From positions 1,164,977 to 1,228,976 of the forward strand of contig JAHBYP010000001.1 of the NCBI GenBank assembly GCA_019635875.1: a DNA stretch of 64,000 nt, written 5' to 3'. The notes under the pieces were generated by a model. The model made no database searches. It saw only the letters and a program-made list of their open reading frames with translations, and was not told the DNA's origin. Origin of the DNA: Alphaproteobacteria bacterium. Lineage in GTDB: Bacteria > Pseudomonadota > Alphaproteobacteria > Reyranellales > Reyranellaceae. Position numbers and translations under genes: made by a program. The first letter of the stretch is position 1, and each line of letters opens with the position of its first letter. Of this stretch, positions 1 through 12,982 are shown piece by piece.

Positions 1-2313
1 CTCGACGCGCCGCCGTCGTACGGCGATCGAAGACTCGTCAAAGATCGCAATGAGATGTTGCGGCCGCTTGGACAATGCGGTTTGGATGAGGCGGTCAAGG
101 TTCTCGTAAGTGTCCCGCTCGACGCGCAGTTCTAGCCTGCCGGCCGCGACCTTTTCATAGACCAGATCCTGGGCCTTTCCCTCAAGCGTGGAGGCCGCCA
201 TCAGGCGGTCGCGATGCTTGCCGGTGGCGACGATCGAGACGTCTAGTGCGGGCAACCGAGAGGGATTGTTGCGCGGGTCGTTTAGAAACTTGGTCAGCCG
301 CTCTAGCACGCGCGCCGGTTCGGGCGGATTGACAAGCGTCAATCGAAGCGGCCGCGGATGGTTCGGATAGAGAAGGACGTAGTGATCGAGCGCCAAGATC
401 AGTGTTTCGAGACCATCTGCGCTGCTCACGGCATTATGTAGGTTTTCGAAGGTCGCGAGCCCACAAATCGTGTTGGCAACCGGCAAGAGCTGGTCGAGAC
501 CTTTTGCCTCCGGCGTGGCACCCGTCCGAATAACGCCGAGGAATTGCTCGGGCCTGCGCAACTCCTCGATGATGACCTTGCGGTCGCTGTCGGACAGCGG
601 CCCGGCGTGGACGAGATCGCGCAGGACTTGGCCCAAGCGTTGATACCTCCAAAGGTGAAGCGGATGCAGCGGCAACATGACCGCCTTTGCACTTACGCCG
701 CCGTCGCTGCGGCGGATCCGCACCTGGACCAGATCGAGCGAGAGGATTGCATCAAGCGTCGTCTGTGCCCATTCCCTCGATTGATCCCAGACCGCCCGGT
801 AGTTCTGCTGGATCGCCTTGTAGAGCTCGGTGGTCGCCGTAAGATACTGGCTGCACCGCTCCTTCGCTTCGGGGTGCGTGTCGAGCCATTCGCGGGGGTG
901 GATGAGAAGCTGTCGAATGTCTTTCGCCAATGCTGAGCGCGCAGCAAGAAAATCGCGCCACATTGCTTCGATCGGACGGGCGCACGATTCCTTCACTGCG
1001 TCGACTTCGTCCCAAGCCTTGAGCAGTTGGTCGATCGAGTAGGTCAGACCGTTGTGCCGCCAGACCATTGCGGGATCAATGAAGACAGGATCGAACTCCG
1101 CGTATCTCGCAAGCGCTTGAGGTAAGTCGGAAACGTCAGTTTCCATGAGCCCGCCGAATCGATCGGCGGCACAGAAACCAGTGACCCAATCAATGATGCG
1201 AGGGTCGACTGCTTCGTCAATCCTTGCTACGCCCCGACTGGTCTCGCGATTGGATGCGAGATGATCGCCATTCTGATCGAACTCCGCCCAGGCATCTTCA
1301 AGCGCCTTGCCGATCGTGGCGAGGTCCTCGTCCCGGCCTTCGAGCAGCGCATCAACCGCCATATCGCGTAGATCCGGATCGTCCGGATCAGAATGGATTT
1401 GCTCGTCGTCGTCCGGCTGCTCGTCATCCGGCTCGTCCTTCGGTCGCTCGACAATCGGCAGAGCATCTGGAGGTAGCGTGACGAGTCGATCGGCGTCCTG
1501 CACGGTTAGCCCCGCATGGGGATCGCCGCGGCGGTAAAGTTCCAATCGATCCAGCGCCTGCGTGACAAGGTTCGAAGTGGTTTCGTCGCGATACCGCGCC
1601 GCTCGCAACCGACGCTGCCGGAGTTCGCCGGGGGAGAGAATGGTGACGCGCTCGCCGACGCGCAAATTGTGGAGGAGGCGCTTGGCGATATCGTCGGCTT
1701 CGAACAACTGCGGATCGGCCAAAAGCCCGAGCGCGGGCAAGGCGTCACGCGGTGCCTCGATCGCGCCCCGCGGTGCGGTGCTCCATTCGGCCAGGAAGTT
1801 CGAGATGCCTTCAAGCGAGCGAAGCGGTGCCAAAGCACGTTCAGTGCGGAGTTTCGAGAGGAGTGAGCGGTGCTGGGGTGTAGCAGTGAACTCAGCTACC
1901 CCCTCCGCCCAGTTCAAGAGATACCTGGCGAGTTCGCCCGACGAGGCTCGCGAGAAGAAGCGTAAGCCGTGGACACTCGGATTGTATCCCCGTGCTAAGG
2001 CGATGATCCGCCGATGGAGACCGCGGTCGTTGCGCCACTTCGTCGCGACGTGGAGGTCAGTCGTGACGCCTGCGAGATCGCCGAGACCTGCTGCGGTAAC
2101 GGAGGCCCGGGCTTTGTCCTCGCTGATGTCAAAACCGACAAGCGCCAGCGAGAATTGCTCTGCGGGGAGGCCACCTGCGACGAGCGCCTGTAGCAAGTTG
2201 TCGATATTGCAGCGCGGCAGGCCTTCCCGCGCGAAATCATTCTCATGATCAAGTCGGGTCAGAATCCAAGCAGCCAGCGCTTCGCCGACCAGTGAGGGCG
2301 CAGTTCGGGCCAT
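1..2313 (-). CDS. Large DptH/HerA-like defence protein, N-terminal 771 residues (cut by left edge)
   Basis: The frame is open from an ATG at 2313 to base 1 with no stop, so at least 771 residues are encoded and the C-terminus lies outside the window. Seen: a mostly helical N-terminus, an acidic linker near residues 290-320 (KDEPDDEQPDDDEQ), the motif LPLHPLHLWRYQRL near residue 570, then LTLVNPPEPARVLERL and HLIAIFDESS. From memory, a 'PLHPLRL' motif followed by 'NP' and 'FD' segments occurs in large HerA/FtsK-type ATPases such as DptH of phosphorothioation-linked restriction. The Walker motifs would lie beyond the edge, so the ATPase is inferred, not seen. It starts one base after the stop of the gene before it and is last in the visible operon. 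GC is lower than in the core genes to the right. Confidence 0.6.
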   Translation of the reverse strand, partial: MARTAPSLVGEALAAWILTRLDHENDFAREGLPRCNIDNLLQALVAGGLPAEQFSLALVGFDISEDKARASVTAAGLGDLAGVTTDLHVATKWRNDRGLHRRIIALARGYNPSVHGLRFFSRASSGELARYLLNWAEGVAEFTATPQHRSLLSKLRTERALAPLRSLEGISNFLAEWSTAPRGAIEAPRDALPALGLLADPQLFEADDIAKRLLHNLRVGERVTILSPGELRQRRLRAARYRDETTSNLVTQALDRLELYRRGDPHAGLTVQDADRLVTLPPDALPIVERPKDEPDDEQPDDDEQIHSDPDDPDLRDMAVDALLEGRDEDLATIGKALEDAWAEFDQNGDHLASNRETSRGVARIDEAVDPRIIDWVTGFCAADRFGGLMETDVSDLPQALARYAEFDPVFIDPAMVWRHNGLTYSIDQLLKAWDEVDAVKESCARPIEAMWRDFLAARSALAKDIRQLLIHPREWLDTHPEAKERCSQYLTATTELYKAIQQNYRAVWDQSREWAQTTLDAILSLDLVQVRIRRSDGGVSAKAVMLPLHPLHLWRYQRLGQVLRDLVHAGPLSDSDRKVIIEELRRPEQFLGVIRTGATPEAKGLDQLLPVANTICGLATFENLHNAVSSADGLETLILALDHYVLLYPNHPRPLRLTLVNPPEPARVLERLTKFLNDPRNNPSRLPALDVSIVATGKHRDRLMAASTLEGKAQDLVYEKVAAGRLELRVERDTYENLDRLIQTALSKRPQHLIAIFDESSIAVRRRRVE

Positions 2314-2314
2314 C

Positions 2315-3673
2315 TCAGATCAACTCTTCGGCGTTTATAGCAACGAGGGTAAGACCGTCCGACGGCTCGACGGCCAAGCCCAGGCGGATTAGCAGTGCTT
2401 CGAAGGCGGCGGCATTGGGGCGTAGATCGTCGTCCCGATCAAGGGGGCCGAAGCGATGCGAGCGCAGGAAATCGCCGTCATGCGCACGTGCGCCGACAAC
2501 AAGCGACCATGTCGATTGCAGCTGATCGGCGAATTCCGGCAGAGTGAGAACCTGCTCCTTTTCGAGGAGACTGAGGGCAAGAACCCGCAGCGTATCCGCC
2601 TGCAATTCGATATGTTTGTGCTTAGCAGCGCCGGAACGCGGCTGGGCTATCCCGATGCGAACAGCCAGATCGCGGAAGTGTTCGTCGAGGACCTGGCGCG
2701 ATTCGGCGGACGCAGCGAAGACGTTCCAATCTTTCTCGCTCACGCTTGAGTGGCCGGGTCCAGCGATGGCGCGGTCGTAGCTTACGGAGAAGAGGTCGAG
2801 AGCCCGAGTATAGCTCGTTCGGCTTTGCGCGCGAATGCGCAGATTGTCTCCCTGCAGCGAGTCGATCAGCAACACCGGCTGATCGCTCGACTGACGCAGC
2901 ATGTAGGCGAACAACCAGCAGCACAGACCGAGTACGATATAGCGAAGCGCATAGTTGGAGCGCTGGCGCTCGAGGTTGGACGCAAGCCGACCCACCGCGA
3001 TCGTGCAGTCGTGCATCATCGAACCGATTGCCGTGGCGCGCGCAGGCTCGATTGCACCGTATAGTTCGTCGTGTCGATCGGACCAGGCCTCCTCCTCGTC
3101 ATCGAGCAGCGGGGAGCCCAAAGCGGCCAGCGGAGGCGCCGGCATGTCAAGAAGCCGGCGGATCATGTCTAGAGCCTGCCGGCCTTCAGGGGTTGCTTCA
3201 AAGATAGTGAGGACGAAGCTTCCAGAATGTCCGTGGTTCTTAGAGGAATCCGAAATGTATTTGATCGACGGAGCGCTGTAGTCTGCGCCGAACGTCGAAT
3301 AGGGCGCAAACGACGCAGCCAGAGCAGAACCGTCATTATTGTAGGCCGCATTGAGATGGGATCGAAGCGTTCGGAAGCCGTCAAGCTCCACGGAAGCACT
3401 CATACGTTTGAGATCCACTAGCAGGGGGTGCAGTCGCTCGGACGGATACTCGTCGCGAACGCGCTGCGAATCCTTGGGCGCAACCTTCGGCACGGATGCT
3501 TTGTTTAGGTATTCTAGCCGTTGATAGCGTCGCGTTAGTGCCAGTAGAAAACTGGTCGCAAAATGAACCGGCTTCATCCGAAGTGGCTGGTAGCCAAGCA
3601 GGGCGCCATGAACGCGCCGTTCGGCCGCAGTGTTTTCGCGCCGTTCGGCGGCAGAAAAGGAAGGCTTAGGCAT
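2315..3673 (-). CDS. Unrecognised 452-residue protein of the defence operon (DptG position)
   Basis: I do not recognise this family. The protein has a basic N-terminus (MPKPSFSAAERREN), no signal peptide, and one hydrophobic stretch near residues 245-260 (LRYIVLGLCCWLFAYML) that could be a single membrane segment or a buried helix. The rest is mixed alpha/beta with a helical C-terminus. Its start overlaps the end of the NTPase gene by 8 bases and its stop is one base from the next ATG, so the genes are translationally coupled. By position and size (between a DptF-like NTPase and a DptH-like protein) it corresponds to DptG, which is also about 440-450 residues. That is a positional inference without motif support. 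Confidence 0.6.
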   Translation of the reverse strand: MPKPSFSAAERRENTAAERRVHGALLGYQPLRMKPVHFATSFLLALTRRYQRLEYLNKASVPKVAPKDSQRVRDEYPSERLHPLLVDLKRMSASVELDGFRTLRSHLNAAYNNDGSALAASFAPYSTFGADYSAPSIKYISDSSKNHGHSGSFVLTIFEATPEGRQALDMIRRLLDMPAPPLAALGSPLLDDEEEAWSDRHDELYGAIEPARATAIGSMMHDCTIAVGRLASNLERQRSNYALRYIVLGLCCWLFAYMLRQSSDQPVLLIDSLQGDNLRIRAQSRTSYTRALDLFSVSYDRAIAGPGHSSVSEKDWNVFAASAESRQVLDEHFRDLAVRIGIAQPRSGAAKHKHIELQADTLRVLALSLLEKEQVLTLPEFADQLQSTWSLVVGARAHDGDFLRSHRFGPLDRDDDLRPNAAAFEALLIRLGLAVEPSDGLTLVAINAEELI

Positions 3674-5240
3674 ATCTCCGAACCCCCTCGTACCGACGCC
3701 CGTCGGTGCTCAGGTTTACTTGGATGAGCTCCAAACTCTCGAGATGCACTGACCAAATCACGTCGCGCTGACTGGTCGCATGAGCCCCCAGCTTCTCGAG
3801 AAAGGCATCTAGCCGATGGATATCACGCTCCGGCACCAGCTTGCGCGGCAGACCGCGTCCCAGGCGGCGAAGCGTTCGCCACAGCGGGAAGTCGATCCGT
3901 AACCGCGGCGTCTCGGCCATGTTGATTGCGGTCAGTGCGATATGATCGGCACTGTAGCTGAAACAGTCTTCCAAGCGTGATGGTAGGCGTGGGATCTCAA
4001 GGGCGAACTGCTCGCTTGGGACTCGCTCGGCGGCAACAAACGAGCGCGAGGGTTGCTCGTGGAATCGGTGCCCGCTCCAAACATAGAGATGTTGATCGCG
4101 GGAATCGAAGCGCACTGGGCAATAGGATGCGTTGATGGCATCAACGAGCGATGCAACAGCAGCACGATCCGGGCCGCGACTCAAGAGGGCCTGGAAATCC
4201 TTAGTGTCTGGATCGGCCAACTCGAAAAGTTCTTCACCTTGTTCATGCTCAAAGTAGAAGCGACGCTTCATCGCCGCAAAATCCTCCCATTCTAAGGTCG
4301 GATGGGGTGGCGGCACCGGCGCCCGCAACGCCCAGCCTTGGCGCACTTTGGGGGCCTTAGTTTCGATTGCGGCATCCCACAGCGGATGACTGGTCGCCGC
4401 AGGGTCGACTGATTGGAGTGCGGCGGTCAGGTCGAAGCGGTCATCTCGGGCGAAGAGCGATTCAGAATACCAGTCGAGACGCTGGAAGTCGCCGCGTTCC
4501 ATCCGGCCAAAGATCATGCGAGATATCAGGATCCAAAGTTCCCGTACTGTGGCGCGATGACCGAGCGCGATCAGACGAGTTGTAAGAGCGCGAAGGCGCG
4601 TCCGTACCCTAGGGAGCGACAAAAGTTCGACATTGCGACGTGCGACTGGCTCGGTGGCGTCCGTGAGCGACGCTGTAAAGTCCGCGTCCGCCAGCAGCTT
4701 GTCGATCAACGCGTCGAAGAAGTTTGCGCTGAGCGGGTTGCGCAGGCTGAGATCGATCACGAGCACGTTGCCAGCGGCTTCTTCCTGTGATTTCGGTCCA
4801 TAAGCGAGTCGATGACGGCATTGTCGCGATACTTCTGAGAGATGTGCAGCAGCAGGGTCCGCCATCCGCAGCTGGTAGAGAGGATACTCATTCGCGGCGA
4901 TACAAAACGGACGAGCTTGCTCTATCGCTTTTTGCCATTCCGCCAGGATGGGTGCGGGATCGCCGCCTCGCATCAGCGCCGTTGCGTCCTCTACCACGAT
5001 CGCTCCGGCCGCCTCCAGGGCGGTGCGGGCGCGGCGCAAGAGATGGGTCTTGCCGTCGCCAGCATTGCCAGTCAGGACGACGCTTCGACCGGCGCGAACC
5101 TGATCGGCCAAGAAGCGCTCGATCTTTCCATCGATATGCAGCCGCTCGAAATCGTCGTCGCTCAAAGCCTCCGCGATTGCTTTGGGGCCCGCCGCAGCCA
5201 GCGTCCGCCAAAGCTCGCTGCCGTTCTTGTCCCTGTCCAT
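3666..5240 (-). CDS. P-loop NTPase, DptF-like
   Basis: A 524-residue protein with a clear Walker A motif, TGNAGDGKTHLLRR, near residue 50, followed by VVEDATAL and NVLVIDLSLRNPL, which could supply the Walker B/sensor part. The 'GNAGDGKTH' form of the P-loop and the length match my memory of DptF, the NTPase of DNA-phosphorothioation-dependent restriction (DptFGH/DndFGH). Other STAND/AAA-like defence NTPases are possible. I chose ATG 5240, with AGG-rich sequence just upstream. An in-frame TTG at 5273 would overlap the stop of the DruA-like gene by 8 bases and add 11 residues. It overlaps the next gene by 8 bases. Probable role: energy-dependent sensor or motor of the anti-phage complex (inference). 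Confidence 0.7.
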   Translation of the reverse strand: MDRDKNGSELWRTLAAAGPKAIAEALSDDDFERLHIDGKIERFLADQVRAGRSVVLTGNAGDGKTHLLRRARTALEAAGAIVVEDATALMRGGDPAPILAEWQKAIEQARPFCIAANEYPLYQLRMADPAAAHLSEVSRQCRHRLAYGPKSQEEAAGNVLVIDLSLRNPLSANFFDALIDKLLADADFTASLTDATEPVARRNVELLSLPRVRTRLRALTTRLIALGHRATVRELWILISRMIFGRMERGDFQRLDWYSESLFARDDRFDLTAALQSVDPAATSHPLWDAAIETKAPKVRQGWALRAPVPPPHPTLEWEDFAAMKRRFYFEHEQGEELFELADPDTKDFQALLSRGPDRAAVASLVDAINASYCPVRFDSRDQHLYVWSGHRFHEQPSRSFVAAERVPSEQFALEIPRLPSRLEDCFSYSADHIALTAINMAETPRLRIDFPLWRTLRRLGRGLPRKLVPERDIHRLDAFLEKLGAHATSQRDVIWSVHLESLELIQVNLSTDGRRYEGVRRYA

Positions 5241-5265
5241 CGTCCTGCTTGACCTCCGCCGCCGC

Positions 5266-7314
5266 TCATTCAATCGATTCTCCCGTTTCTTGTCTCGTTA
5301 GATTGCCTAAGGGCACAAAGCCGTCCAGCGGTAAGGCGCGCATGGTTGGTTCGTGGTTGAGTCGGCTAGCGAGCCAGCGGCGACACCAGAAGTCGGCGAT
5401 TCGCTTGGTAGCATCGACATACTGCTCCGGAAATTGAAGGTAGCCAGGGAGCAACGACGTGCGCTCGACGAGCCAATCACGAGCTTCCGCGAACAGCGGC
5501 ACGGCGTAGATCAGACGGTGCTGGCGATGCTGTAGCAGCTTGTCAGGATCGTATCCAAGTTTCCGCAACCCCATCTTTAGCTTTCGGAGCTTCGGACTGG
5601 TGCCTTCACCAAAGACACTGTTCACTTCGCGAAAGTCGTTTTGCGCGGAAAGAAAAGCGTCGATCGAACGGCTGGTATCCTGGGAGAACTGGAGCGTTCC
5701 GAATCCCGAAGTTTGGCCTATTGGATGGAATGCGATCTCGACCTGATCGGAAGCGATTACCCCCTTCGGAAGACGCAGCCTGTTATATTGGCTTGAACCG
5801 TGCACGTAGAGGCTGGTCGTGCCGAGGTAAACTAGGGCATTGTCTCGCGTGACCGGCCGGTTTCGCATTTGAGACGAAATGATCGACGGGTTGCTGTAAT
5901 TGCGCCGGTAGTCTGCGCCGATGCGCGGGCTCAGCATGAGCAGCGCGACGAGCTTGCCACCCAAGAGCCGACTGTAAGGCGGGATCGCGCCGCATGTAGT
6001 AATTTCCAGCAGATTTGCGCCCGCACGGCGACCCTTGAGCGCCTCGAGGATTATGTGGATGGCGCTGCGCACGGCTTCGATTTGAAGCACGGTGAGGGCG
6101 AGCGTGGGATCGGTTAGAGCCTCGCGATGGCGCGCGATCGTTATACGCGCCGACAAGAGCCGCGAAAGTGCCGTGGCGCGTTTCTTGGCGACTAGCTTCT
6201 TGCGAGCGCTGTGCATCCGGACATCTACGGATGCCTTAGGCTCGAGCTGTAGAATGTCGTCATCGACCGGTGGGGCATATTCGTCGGACCAATGGCCGGG
6301 ATCAAAGGCATCGCGGTCAGCACCAATGACCTCTCGCAACAAAGCTTCTCGCCTCTGCGCGAAGTCCTTACCCTGGCGCGCCAAACGACGTATGAGTTCG
6401 TCATCGGGCGCTGCGACCTGCTCGGGCGTGACGAGATTGGTCCAGTCGATCTCTTCCAGCGATGTCGCGATCTGTTGCTCAAGCCATCGCACCTCGACAT
6501 CCAGCGCTTCTGTGCCCTCGAACGACGCCTTGGTGAAGCGCTCAATGATGGTCTTCAAATGCCAGCCGATATAGGCTTCTCGCTTCTCGCCCATCTCGAG
6601 CGGACAATTGTTGAGCGCCGCGATGCCGATCACGGGGTGCGCGGGATGAGCTGCATCGCGGACGAGGTAGAGAAGCTGGCGGCCCGGCGTTGGCACTTGC
6701 GGGATTGACCAACTATAGCGGAAATACCGCCAGATCTCGCGGAGACGGCGCCCGGTGATCGCGTCGGCGGTGCCATCCGCCTCCTGAAGATAGGGCCGGA
6801 TTGCAGTGGCCAAAGCCTCTCTGCCTTCGTCTCTTGCTTTCGACAGACGCTGGGCCAGCTCCCGCCCTTCCGCCATTAACAGCCGGACGCTTTTTCGTCC
6901 CAGTCGATCCTCACCCTCCATCTTCGCAATGAAATCGATGATTGCGGGGTGGCGACGTTGCTCCTCGACGACCGGTCGAAGCTCGTTGCGAAGGGAATCC
7001 TTGTTGGCGATCGTTTCTTGCGCGGAGCCTCCCGTTACCAGCTCCTTGGGATTTTCGAGCGCGAAGCCATAACCTTGTTCAATCACCCGCCAGCGCAGAC
7101 GAGCAAGGTCGGTTAGCACCCTGACGCAAGCCTCATAGGCGAGCGCGGTCTTGCCGAGATTTGTTGCCGACCGGCACCAGGCGATCTCAGTTTCGAGGGC
7201 ATCAATCATCTCGTCTCTTCGCCCATTACATTGGGCGTTGGAGAGCCTCATTGCAAAATCGTGGAATCGCTCGGCAGACTCGCCGTCGAGTGGTGGGTAA
7301 AGCGGAACGATCAT
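5266..7314 (-). CDS. DUF4338 / DruA-like anti-phage protein
   Basis: A 682-residue protein. The middle carries VIGIAALNNCPLEMGEKREA followed by YIGW, and the C-terminal half carries TTCGAIPPYSRLLGGKLVAL, then NPSIISSQMRNRPVTR and LGTTSLYVHGSSQYNRLRLP. From memory, the order 'IG...RD.(W/Y)IGW', 'GA(V/I)PPYS.LL.GKLVALL', 'TTS..G.SS.YNRL' marks DUF4338 proteins, the family of DruA in Druantia anti-phage systems. The biochemical role of DruA is not known to me. No DruE-type helicase is visible; the downstream partners are Dpt-like instead. ATG 7314 is preferred; an in-frame TTG at 7350 is the alternative, and neither has a good Shine-Dalgarno sequence. First gene of the operon, 82 bases after the fumarase gene on the same strand with no terminator between. 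Hand count 5641-5700: 34/60 GC, against 43/60 in fumarase at 8341-8400. Confidence 0.72.
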   Translation of the reverse strand: MIVPLYPPLDGESAERFHDFAMRLSNAQCNGRRDEMIDALETEIAWCRSATNLGKTALAYEACVRVLTDLARLRWRVIEQGYGFALENPKELVTGGSAQETIANKDSLRNELRPVVEEQRRHPAIIDFIAKMEGEDRLGRKSVRLLMAEGRELAQRLSKARDEGREALATAIRPYLQEADGTADAITGRRLREIWRYFRYSWSIPQVPTPGRQLLYLVRDAAHPAHPVIGIAALNNCPLEMGEKREAYIGWHLKTIIERFTKASFEGTEALDVEVRWLEQQIATSLEEIDWTNLVTPEQVAAPDDELIRRLARQGKDFAQRREALLREVIGADRDAFDPGHWSDEYAPPVDDDILQLEPKASVDVRMHSARKKLVAKKRATALSRLLSARITIARHREALTDPTLALTVLQIEAVRSAIHIILEALKGRRAGANLLEITTCGAIPPYSRLLGGKLVALLMLSPRIGADYRRNYSNPSIISSQMRNRPVTRDNALVYLGTTSLYVHGSSQYNRLRLPKGVIASDQVEIAFHPIGQTSGFGTLQFSQDTSRSIDAFLSAQNDFREVNSVFGEGTSPKLRKLKMGLRKLGYDPDKLLQHRQHRLIYAVPLFAEARDWLVERTSLLPGYLQFPEQYVDATKRIADFWCRRWLASRLNHEPTMRALPLDGFVPLGNLTRQETGESIE

Positions 7315-7396
7315 TAGTGCGTCGGACGTTCGGCGAGTAGCCGCAGACAAGGCAAGCGGCTAGGAAGTTTGGCGGAAGGCGACACAGCGACCCTCA

Positions 7397-10361: not shown

Positions 10362-12482
10362 TCACTGCTTGGTCCAGGTGATCCGGTAGATGCAACCATC
10401 GAGAAATTCCACCAGCGTGCTGCGCATGTTTCCCCCGTACGAGCGCACCGGCCGGCCGTCATAGGCGATGGTTACGGCCCTCAGCCCATCCTCGCCGATG
10501 CGGATCACCATCGGGCCGCCATAGGTCGTGCTCGCCTGCAGGACGCCGTTGGTCGCCGTGCCGGTGATGGTGAAGGAGCCCGTGCAGACGCGGCCGCGCG
10601 CATGGGTCTGCACGGAGGCGGTCGCCGACCAGCGCCCGTCGCCGGCATGCAGCGATGGCGGCGGCTTGCGCGCCGCCTCCTCGCGGCGACGGCGTTCGGC
10701 CTCGGCGGCGGCACGCCGACGCGCTTCCTCGGCCGCCGCCCGCGCCCGCGCTTCCTCCTCGGCTCTGCGCCTGGCTTCCTCCTGCGCGCGGCGTTGCGGA
10801 TCGTCGGCCGCCGCCTTGCGTCGCGCCTCCTCCTCGGCCGCACGACGGCGTGCTTCCTCGGCGGCTGCACGGCGTGCCTCCTCGTCGGCGCGACGACGTG
10901 CCTCCTCGTCGGCGCGGCGACGTGCTTCCTCGTCGGCGCGGCGTCGCGCTTCCTCGTCGGCGCGGCGGCGTGCTTCCTCGTCGGCGCGGCGGCGTGCTTC
11001 CTCGTCGGCGCGGCGACGTGCTTCCTCGTCGGCGCGGCGGCGTGCTTCCTCGTCGGCACGGCGGCGAGCTTCCTCGTCGGCGCGACGGCGCGCTTCCTCC
11101 TCCGCGGCGCGGGCCCGCGCGGCCTCCTCGTCGGCGGCGCGCTGGCGGGCAGCCGCTTCCTCGATGCGGCGACGCTCGGCCTCGTCGGCGGCGGCCTTGG
11201 CGCGCGCGGCTTCGGCGGCGAGGTCGGCCTGACGGCGCTCCTCGGCGGCGCGTCGCTCGGCCTCGAGGCGGCGTTGTTCAGAGCCGTCGAACAGGCCGAG
11301 CCCGCCGGCGAACAGCAATCCGCCGCCGATGCCCAGCAGCAGGACCGCGAGCGTGCCGACGATCAGCGGCCAGCGCGCGGGTCTGGCCGGCGGATCGGCA
11401 CGCGGCGAAAGGCGGCTGGGCGACTGCTCGCGCAGCGACGGCTGGCGGACCGACGGCTCGCGCATCGAAGGCTGGCGTTGCGATGGCAGCGGCGCGGCCG
11501 GCTGTGCGGGAGGCGCCATCGCCATCGCCTCCGACCTGCTCGAGCGCTGGCCGGCGATCACTGTCGGGAACTCGGCGCGGGTCGCCGAGAGGGTCGCGTC
11601 GGCCGGCATCGGCTCGTCGAACAGGATGGCCCGCCAGGCCGCCACCGATGGCGGACGGTTCTCCTTGCGCAGACCCAGCCCGGCATCGATGCCGGCAAGG
11701 AAGGAGTGGGGATACTTGCCCGCGGCCGCCTGCGCCGCCGGCACCATGCGGTCGTTGAGCAGGCGGGTCGTGGCGTCGGGCGGCGGCCAGCCTGTGATCG
11801 CCTCGTAGAGCGTCGCGGCCAGCGCGTAGATGTCGGTCCACGGACCCTGCTCGCCATCGGCGGCGTACTGCTCGGCGGGCGCGTAGCCCGGCGTGTAGAC
11901 GCTGGTCATGGCATGCGTGCCGCTGCGCCTGGAGATGCGCGCGGCACCGAAATCGACCAGCACCGGCTGGCCGTTCGGCCGGATCAGGATATTGCCCGGC
12001 TTGATGTCGCGGTGCAGATAGCCGCGCGCATGCACGGCCTCCAGCCCGCTCAACAATTGCCGCGTGATCGGCATCAGGCGGTCGGCGGCCATGGGGCCGT
12101 CGCGATCGAGGATCAGCGCCAGGCTGCGCCCCTCGATCAGCTCCATGACCATGTAGCCGGTGCCGTTGGTTTCCATGAAATCGTGCACGGCCACGATGTT
12201 GGGCGCGCTCATCGCCGCCAGCGTGCGCGCCTCGTCGACGAAGCGCTGCAGGCCCCACTGGTAGAGCCGCGTGTCGGACTCGGTGCGCGGGCGGATCGTG
12301 GTGTCCTGCTCGCGCACAGCGACGTCGGCCGGCAGGTACTCCTTGATGGCGACGTCGCGGCGCAGGGCTTCGTCGCGCGCCCGGTAGGTGATCCCGAAGC
12401 CGCCTTCGCCCAGAACCGCGCTCAAGGTGTAGCGACCGACACGGTAGCCCGTCGGCAGCGCCACCAGTCGACCGCCCTCCAT
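10362..12482 (-). CDS. Membrane Ser/Thr protein kinase with repetitive coiled stalk
   Basis: A 706-residue protein. Residues about 15-280 are a Hanks-type kinase: glycine loop LGEGGFGITY, catalytic lysine in VAIKEYLP (Lys47), HRDIKPGN (Asp159) and DFGAAR (Asp177); all key residues are present. A Pro/Ser/Arg-rich linker leads to one membrane helix (WPLIVGTLAVLLLGIGGGLL, about residue 370). Then comes a long Glu/Ala/Arg coiled stalk with about nine near-perfect EARRRADE repeats, and a C-terminal domain with two cysteines (GRVCTGSFTITGT, FLDGCIYRITWTKQ), probably periplasmic. This is the plan of a receptor kinase: cytoplasmic kinase, periplasmic sensor. The target is unknown. It differs from the T6SS kinase at 59,543. 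Start ATG 12482; no strong ribosome site seen. Confidence 0.88.
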   Translation of the reverse strand: MEGGRLVALPTGYRVGRYTLSAVLGEGGFGITYRARDEALRRDVAIKEYLPADVAVREQDTTIRPRTESDTRLYQWGLQRFVDEARTLAAMSAPNIVAVHDFMETNGTGYMVMELIEGRSLALILDRDGPMAADRLMPITRQLLSGLEAVHARGYLHRDIKPGNILIRPNGQPVLVDFGAARISRRSGTHAMTSVYTPGYAPAEQYAADGEQGPWTDIYALAATLYEAITGWPPPDATTRLLNDRMVPAAQAAAGKYPHSFLAGIDAGLGLRKENRPPSVAAWRAILFDEPMPADATLSATRAEFPTVIAGQRSSRSEAMAMAPPAQPAAPLPSQRQPSMREPSVRQPSLREQSPSRLSPRADPPARPARWPLIVGTLAVLLLGIGGGLLFAGGLGLFDGSEQRRLEAERRAAEERRQADLAAEAARAKAAADEAERRRIEEAAARQRAADEEAARARAAEEEARRRADEEARRRADEEARRRADEEARRRADEEARRRADEEARRRADEEARRRADEEARRRADEEARRRADEEARRAAAEEARRRAAEEEARRKAAADDPQRRAQEEARRRAEEEARARAAAEEARRRAAAEAERRRREEAARKPPPSLHAGDGRWSATASVQTHARGRVCTGSFTITGTATNGVLQASTTYGGPMVIRIGEDGLRAVTIAYDGRPVRSYGGNMRSTLVEFLDGCIYRITWTKQ
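10879..11100 (-). repeat. In-gene 24-bp tandem repeats (EARRRADE units)
   Basis: About nine head-to-tail 24-bp units, each containing CCTCGTCGGCGCGGCG-like sequence on the plus strand, encode eight-residue EARRRADE repeats in the stalk of the kinase. Units differ at a few third positions. Copy number could vary between strains and change stalk length without shifting frame. Confidence 0.9.
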
Positions 12483-12605
12483 CCGGCCTGCCTCCGTCCC
12501 GGCACCTCAGTCCAGAAACCTGAGCATACGCTCACAACGCCGGACAGGAAACATCACGACTGCGCCAGCGGTAAGGCGAGTCAGAGGCGAAGCGGTGGAT
12601 GAAAT

Positions 12606-12850
12606 CAAGTGGAGGGGCTTCTGTTGCCCGGTGCCCCTCCGAACCGCGCTTACGTCCGCTGTTTAGGCGGCAGCAGCGAGTGCAACGTCGTTATCGTTGG
12701 CACTTCTGGTTTGGCCCGGTAACGGCGGTACCATGCCGAGCGAAAACTACGCCTTTACTGCGTCCGTCGATCCTGTTTCGCCCCCTCATGGTGGAGGCGC
12801 CGGGTACTGCCCCCGGGTCCGAGCCGCCTATGTCACGCAGCGTTTATCGC
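12606..12850 (-). ncRNA. ssrA: tmRNA, circularly permuted two-piece form
   Basis: Read on the minus strand, the acceptor piece comes first: GGACCCGGGGGCAGTACCCG then GCGCCTCCACCA, with CCA encoded at 12791-12789. After only three bases (TGA, 12788-12786) comes the coding piece, starting GGGGGCGAAACAGGATCGAC at 12785. The 5' GGGGGCG pairs with CGCCTCC before the discriminator A, closing the acceptor stem. The tag frame is at 12701-12666, GCCAACGATAACGACGTTGC onward, giving ANDNDVALAAAA, with stop TAA at 12665-12663. A GGAGGGGC...GCCCCTCC hairpin near 12,638-12,609 closes the coding piece. The acceptor-first order is the alphaproteobacterial permutation. tmRNA rescues stalled ribosomes and tags products for ClpXP. 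The mature 5' and 3' ends are approximate. The flanks of the roughly 500-base gap between kinase and VWA genes hold nothing else I can name. Confidence 0.93.
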
Positions 12851-12982
12851 CATAGCCGGTTGCCCGGCAGGACCAATATAGGCGAGCGGGCGGGCGAAAT
12901 GAAGGCCGCTGCGCTTTGAAGGTCCGGCATCCACAGGCAATATCGTCGGTAGGCACCGCGGAGCCGTGGGGCGGCCGGGGAC

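Follow-up and report, generated by a model that had tools for sequence, protein, structure and literature searches.

The window analysed here is the whole 64,000-nucleotide stretch at positions 1,164,977 to 1,228,976 of contig JAHBYP010000001.1 (assembly GCA_019635875.1, Reyranellaceae), which forms the terminal part of a 1.23-Mb contig in a 6.2-Mb genome. Four touching open reading frames, all on the minus strand and in the order A, B, C, D, lie at its beginning. The overlaps are 8 bases between A and B and 8 bases between B and C, and C and D are separated by a gap of 1 base, which bears out the first-pass annotation of four one-strand genes that overlap or nearly touch. The features are as follows.

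5266 to 7314, minus strand: gene A, DruA (DUF4338), 682 aa from an ATG
3666 to 5273, minus strand: gene B, SspF-type P-loop protein, 535 aa from a TTG
2315 to 3673, minus strand: gene C, SspG-type protein, 452 aa
1 to 2313, minus strand: gene D, SspH-type core, residues 1-771 of 1,581, the gene being cut by the window edge
L002:15045-19790, minus strand: gene D, whole, 1,581 aa
L002:15045-17480, minus strand: part of gene D outside the window, with nuclease and RuvB-type motor
1 to 7390, no strand: window part of a 10,097-bp insert, genome C1:1162270-1172366

Alternative starts are a TTG at 7350 for A, giving 694 aa, and an ATG at 5240 for B, giving 524 aa. No marked RNA structure was found upstream of A (z -0.20), and around the end of D the number of promoter or terminator patterns found was 0.

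The four-gene operon sits on an acquired insert. A genome of the same genus (G660, locus L053) aligns as far as genome position 1162269 and resumes at position 1172367, leaving 5 unaligned bases between, and at this empty site our genome carries 10,097 bp made up of the four genes and about 350 bp. GC content is 0.604 in the insert compared to 0.684 in the left flank and 0.690 in the right flank. Within the window it is 0.600 for positions 1-7314 and 0.690 for positions 7397-64000, and together with the same-genus genome lacking the insert this agrees with the earlier proposal of a low-GC acquired island. In five further genomes of the family, inspected 6-10 kb beyond the same fumarase gene, the fumarase is present and there is no nucleotide match to the insert; because the neighbours of the fumarase gene differ in those five, only G660 shows the empty site itself. 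No integrase was seen in the insert and no target duplication at its edges, the longest shared direct repeat being 8 bases and lying away from the junctions, and no relative of C was found in the viral contig set or the phage set searched. A tmRNA gene (window 12572-12881) lies about 5 kb from the insert, not at its edge. Also in the window, a 706-aa open reading frame (10362-12482) has a protein kinase-like reading and a long run of RRADEEA-type repeats.

Gene A is a full-length DruA, as had been supposed when it was called DUF4338/DruA-like: Pfam DUF4338 matches at 5.2e-32 and PADLOC DruA at 2e-125 over residues 72-673 in the 694-aa version. Annotations commonly label DruA a defence protein; to our knowledge, no activity has been established for it. 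The predicted fold appears GNAT-like, with a helical insert interrupting it at about 243-434. Foldseek returned no row at E <= 0.001, and the GNAT-like rows include protein acetyltransferases. Across archaea and bacteria 57 columns of A are invariant. Comparison with Mu Mom using hhalign gave 0.1%, although a single Mom sequence gives this comparison low power. A had no match to the N-termini of long SspF proteins and no relative in a PDB sequence search. In two loci, L008 and L036, A and B are a single reading frame.

The GNAGDGKTH motif reported earlier for the second gene is present in B, and GxxGDGKT is invariant among 11 aligned F proteins. However, the earlier description of this gene as DptF-like had to be given up, as B is nearer to SspF (PADLOC 6.1e-15) than to DptF (NCBIfam E 0.033, 13 bits against a cut-off of 50). 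Profile-profile comparison with pooled references also placed B with SspF (E 6e-24, probability 99.6%; reversed control E 0.31). Gene C, described at first as a 452-residue protein without a known family, does lack any match at E <= 1 in Pfam, PADLOC and NCBIfam, and it had no relative in a PDB sequence search. The profile-profile match of C to SspG with pooled references had an E value of 2.4e-5 and a probability of 76% (reversed control E 0.28). That probability was 21% with a small separate Ssp profile, 64% against the SspG pool plus two MADS-like proteins, and 30% against SspG-long and mad7 alone. Archaeal G proteins match both the C profile and the SspG profile. With direct evidence that is moderate, C appears to be an SspG homologue, the least sure assignment of B, C and D.

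The reference loci for these comparisons were located using PADLOC SspF and NCBIfam DptH models, and eight were compared; their labels rest on gene order and partial protein scans, with genes called as longest open reading frames. L023 and L024 look like SspBCD-SspFGH, L029 is DptFGH and L025 is MADS-like, with a row of SspF-like, mad7-like, N6-methylase, 497-aa and 1,755-aa genes (L025:6907-19534). In L026-L028 and L030, NERD-kinase parts are fused to SspF, and SspF lies behind NERD nuclease and protein-kinase domains at L026:6820-10953, L027:6752-10891 and L030:6862-10938. The same fusion is described for some DndF proteins in the available text of PMC10853773. Membership of the operon in DptFGH was considered and rejected, since against one reference locus B resembled DptF faintly (16%) and the values for C with DptG and D with DptH were under 1%.

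The fourth gene had been read as a large HerA/DptH-like protein. It is large, with 1,581 residues and not the 771 inside the window, but the HerA part of that reading fails, as the protein consists of an SspH-type core, a predicted nuclease and a RuvB-type motor. Residues 448-1043 match SspH in profile-profile comparison with pooled references (E 1.3e-10, probability 97%; reversed control E 0.11), whereas the small separate Ssp profile gave 6%; the PADLOC SspH models had no match to D. Residues about 890-1140 are a predicted PD-(D/E)xK nuclease with a D...ExK motif and a nuclease fold, and Foldseek returned no row at E <= 0.001 for this part. Residues 1249-1566 form a RuvB-type AAA+ domain (Pfam AAA 1.6e-16, NCBIfam RuvB 1.8e-18), with a weak match to the RuvB winged helix (Pfam RuvB_C 9e-4). 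The ATPase motifs are intact and invariant, and the nearest PDB chains are RuvB (4.2e-8). RuvB is a branch-migration motor. The D motor scores 66.6 bits with NCBIfam RuvB compared to a cut-off of 282, so it is a relative of RuvB and not a true RuvB. Its RuvB-type AAA+ identity in Pfam, NCBIfam and the nearest PDB chains rules out HerA/DptH. A bridging locus, L032, connects the two kinds of protein. Its H protein matches positions 4-1178 of the D profile (8e-77) and, through its FtsK end, the SspH profile (6e-27); its G protein matches C (4e-14) and SspG (1e-9); and its F protein matches B (4e-64) and SspF (8e-17). The profile matches and these bridging proteins make D an SspH-type protein in which a RuvB-type motor stands in for the FtsK one.

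Searching genome contigs with 23 C sequences found 7 loci, 8 with the window. A precedes B at all seven loci whose contig reaches A (as a fragment in L004 and L008, and in two pieces in L007), and where the genes are visible B precedes C (7/7) and D follows C (7/7); L009 starts inside C and L010 stops inside C. The 7 loci come from five Pseudomonadota, one Acidobacteriota (Bryobacterales) and one Bacillota, and the return of the four-gene order in other phyla means that it is no chance. DruA and the F-G-H trio are therefore a conserved unit. The first-pass pairing of DruA with a Dpt-like trio stands as to the pairing, while the trio belongs on the Ssp branch and not the Dpt branch. The unit is rare, with our genome the one carrier among 385 of the class.

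Plasmids carry a sister form of the unit. Fifteen plasmid records match D, 9 over the RuvB part only and 6 over the core, and every one of the 6 core-matching records also has a DruA match. Inspection covered four of these six (L032, L033, L034 and L038) and L036, which was found through DruA, and all five have DruA, F, G and H matches together with an FtsK-type gene or end. This form, found on haloarchaeal and Bacteroidota plasmids, keeps DruA-F-G-H with FtsK as the motor. The genes of L034 are split, and in L036, a Hymenobacter canadensis plasmid, an IS3-type element separates the G-like gene from the H-like gene (L036:13157-14325). At L007:6369-8418 and L034:9776-20122, DruA and other unit genes are in several frames, through assembly errors or decay.

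In a tree of 19 F proteins, a single branch (100/100) sets apart the 11 that are DruA-linked, and the 7 RuvB-type proteins form one subgroup (100/99); in a tree of 20 motor-free H cores, 13 lie on one side (100/99) and the 10 RuvB-type proteins group together (100/100), though both trees contain several long branches that carry a warning of long-branch attraction, and their roots are for drawing only. The simplest reading would be one DruA-FGH partnership with a later single exchange of FtsK for RuvB.

Comparison with known systems suggests several shared parts and some clear disagreements. SspFGH, from the SspABCD-SspFGH phosphorothioate system (available text of PMC8092258), has the trio in the same order with homologues of B, C and D. 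However, its motor is of FtsK type rather than RuvB type, and its partner is SspBCD, whose genes are absent from the operon, where DruA stands instead. DndFGH/DptFGH has the same layout, combining a P-loop protein with one small subunit and one large subunit that carries nuclease and motor, but with a HerA/FtsK motor in place of RuvB; in PMC10853773, 'RuvB' occurs 0 times in the main text. That paper's available text also reports DUF4338 fused to some DndF proteins, which is the nearest arrangement to the one described here in the open-access literature searched. Druantia type I shares DruA, and DruE lies beside the relatives L004, L005, L032 and L033; in contrast, the operon lacks DruB, DruC and DruD and its genome lacks DruE. 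The MADS-like cluster L025 shares SspF-like, mad7/SspG-like and SspH-like genes in one cluster, but its partner is an N6-methylase and not DruA. BRC systems with HerA/FtsK, GNAT and TGT (available text of PMC12839542) also have a GNAT, proposed as a self-marking modifier, beside a DNA motor, but they have PglZ/BrxC-like parts, and 'DUF4338' and 'RuvB' each occur 0 times in the main text of that paper. Judged by its sequences, the operon is not a canonical Druantia, Dnd or Ssp system, and it is best read as an FGH-type restriction system whose partner, DruA, and whose motor are both new. In the Pfam, PADLOC and NCBIfam libraries no single known system covers all four proteins, and only pieces of the operon are detected. 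Searches of the open-access literature turned up no recognised description of DruA with an F-G-H system or of a RuvB-ended SspH-type protein, subscription papers and supplements lying outside the search, and as far as these searches go the four-gene system is undescribed.

A defence role is likely by analogy with relatives, and B, C and D very probably form a DNA-restricting FGH complex. In analogy with DndFGH and SspFGH, the three proteins would form one complex in which B would bind nucleotide as a switch and C and the D core would read DNA. Taking over from the FtsK/HerA pump, the RuvB-type motor would move or remodel DNA and feed the D nuclease. SspFGH without its mark damages host DNA according to the available text of PMC8092258. 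The operon has no methylase and no PT gene, and with this requirement of SspFGH for a mark DruA becomes the one self-signal candidate in it. Elsewhere in the genome, SspC was not found by a search that was positive in G582 and G462, DndC had no match in our genome (G000) while G634 was above cut-off in the same search, and SspB had no match in a search without a positive control. As a putative GNAT-like acyltransferase, DruA would modify host DNA so that the complex spares the host. This mark would take the place of the phosphorothioation carried out by SspBCD or DndBCDE, none of whose genes occur in the operon. A GNAT has been proposed as a self-marking DNA modifier in a different system (available text of PMC12839542). 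The whole chain, in which the FGH complex cuts invading DNA that lacks a mark and DruA is the predicted marking enzyme, is a tentative reading to which we give a probability of roughly 0.4. Its most specific version, with DruA a DNA acyltransferase that writes the self-mark in a first acyl-marked restriction-modification system and a captured-RuvB-driven nuclease complex that destroys unmarked DNA, is doubtful.

Possible, if rather unlikely, is restriction by a stand-alone FGH complex that uses no mark and senses features of the invader such as ends, forks or modified nucleotides, with DruA as a sensor, regulator or DNA-binding partner. DndFGH has been argued to be a stand-alone system in the available text of PMC10853773, and in L008 and L036 A is fused to B, which is sensor-like, as expected of a physical partner. 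However, the 57 invariant columns of A look catalytic, and the need of SspFGH for its mark to spare the host also speaks against this account. It is improbable that DruA acylates proteins, either serving as a back-up effector or activating B, C or D. This role was proposed for GNAT domains fused to DndF in the available text of PMC10853773, and the protein acetyltransferases among the GNAT-like rows for A fit it, but it leaves unexplained how the host escapes an FGH nuclease, and A is present at 7/7 visible loci of this lineage rather than being occasional.

Another origin, from a Druantia type I locus that has decayed or diverged and depends on DruE supplied in trans, would account for A scoring as DruA. 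DruE is directly 3' of D in L004 and L005 (L004:8095-13173, L005:16281-21353) and divergent from DruA in L032 and L033 (L032:1052-6475, L033:1074-6497), which suggests that two DruA partnerships sometimes stand together. Nevertheless, this origin is most unlikely. B, C and D match no PADLOC DruB, DruC or DruD model at E <= 1; DruE is missing from our genome (best score 24 bits, from a 531-aa frame), the window and the inspected flanks of L006-L010; and the DruA-FGH partnership forms a single group spanning two domains of life. Searching genomes for DruB gave no match anywhere and is uninformative. A non-defence module for DNA repair or plasmid maintenance built around RuvB, for which the branch-migration role of RuvB and the presence of several relatives on plasmids might speak, is scarcely credible given that the homologues of F, G and H serve as subunits of restriction systems and that the unit is rare and on an acquired insert.

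If the marking reading is true, a DNA mark made by DruA would give bacteria a new means of distinguishing self from foreign DNA, and an acyl mark would explain what DruA does and unite Druantia with the Dnd, Ssp and MADS restriction modules. The steady pairing of DruA with SspFGH-type proteins as one group in bacteria and archaea makes the function of DruA testable. The exchange of FtsK for RuvB shows that these machines can swap their motor for another ATPase class, which bears on whether they pump, scan or remodel DNA. Of the other DruA plasmid records, the three inspected (L035, L037 and L039) have no F, G or H match, and DruE is present in L037 and L039. On two Rhodobacterales plasmids (L035:3428-7182 and L037:6031-9773) DruA follows an ATP-binding protein without F-G-H, which is another DruA partnership, and the ATP-binding protein of L037 matches PADLOC MzaB (5e-20).
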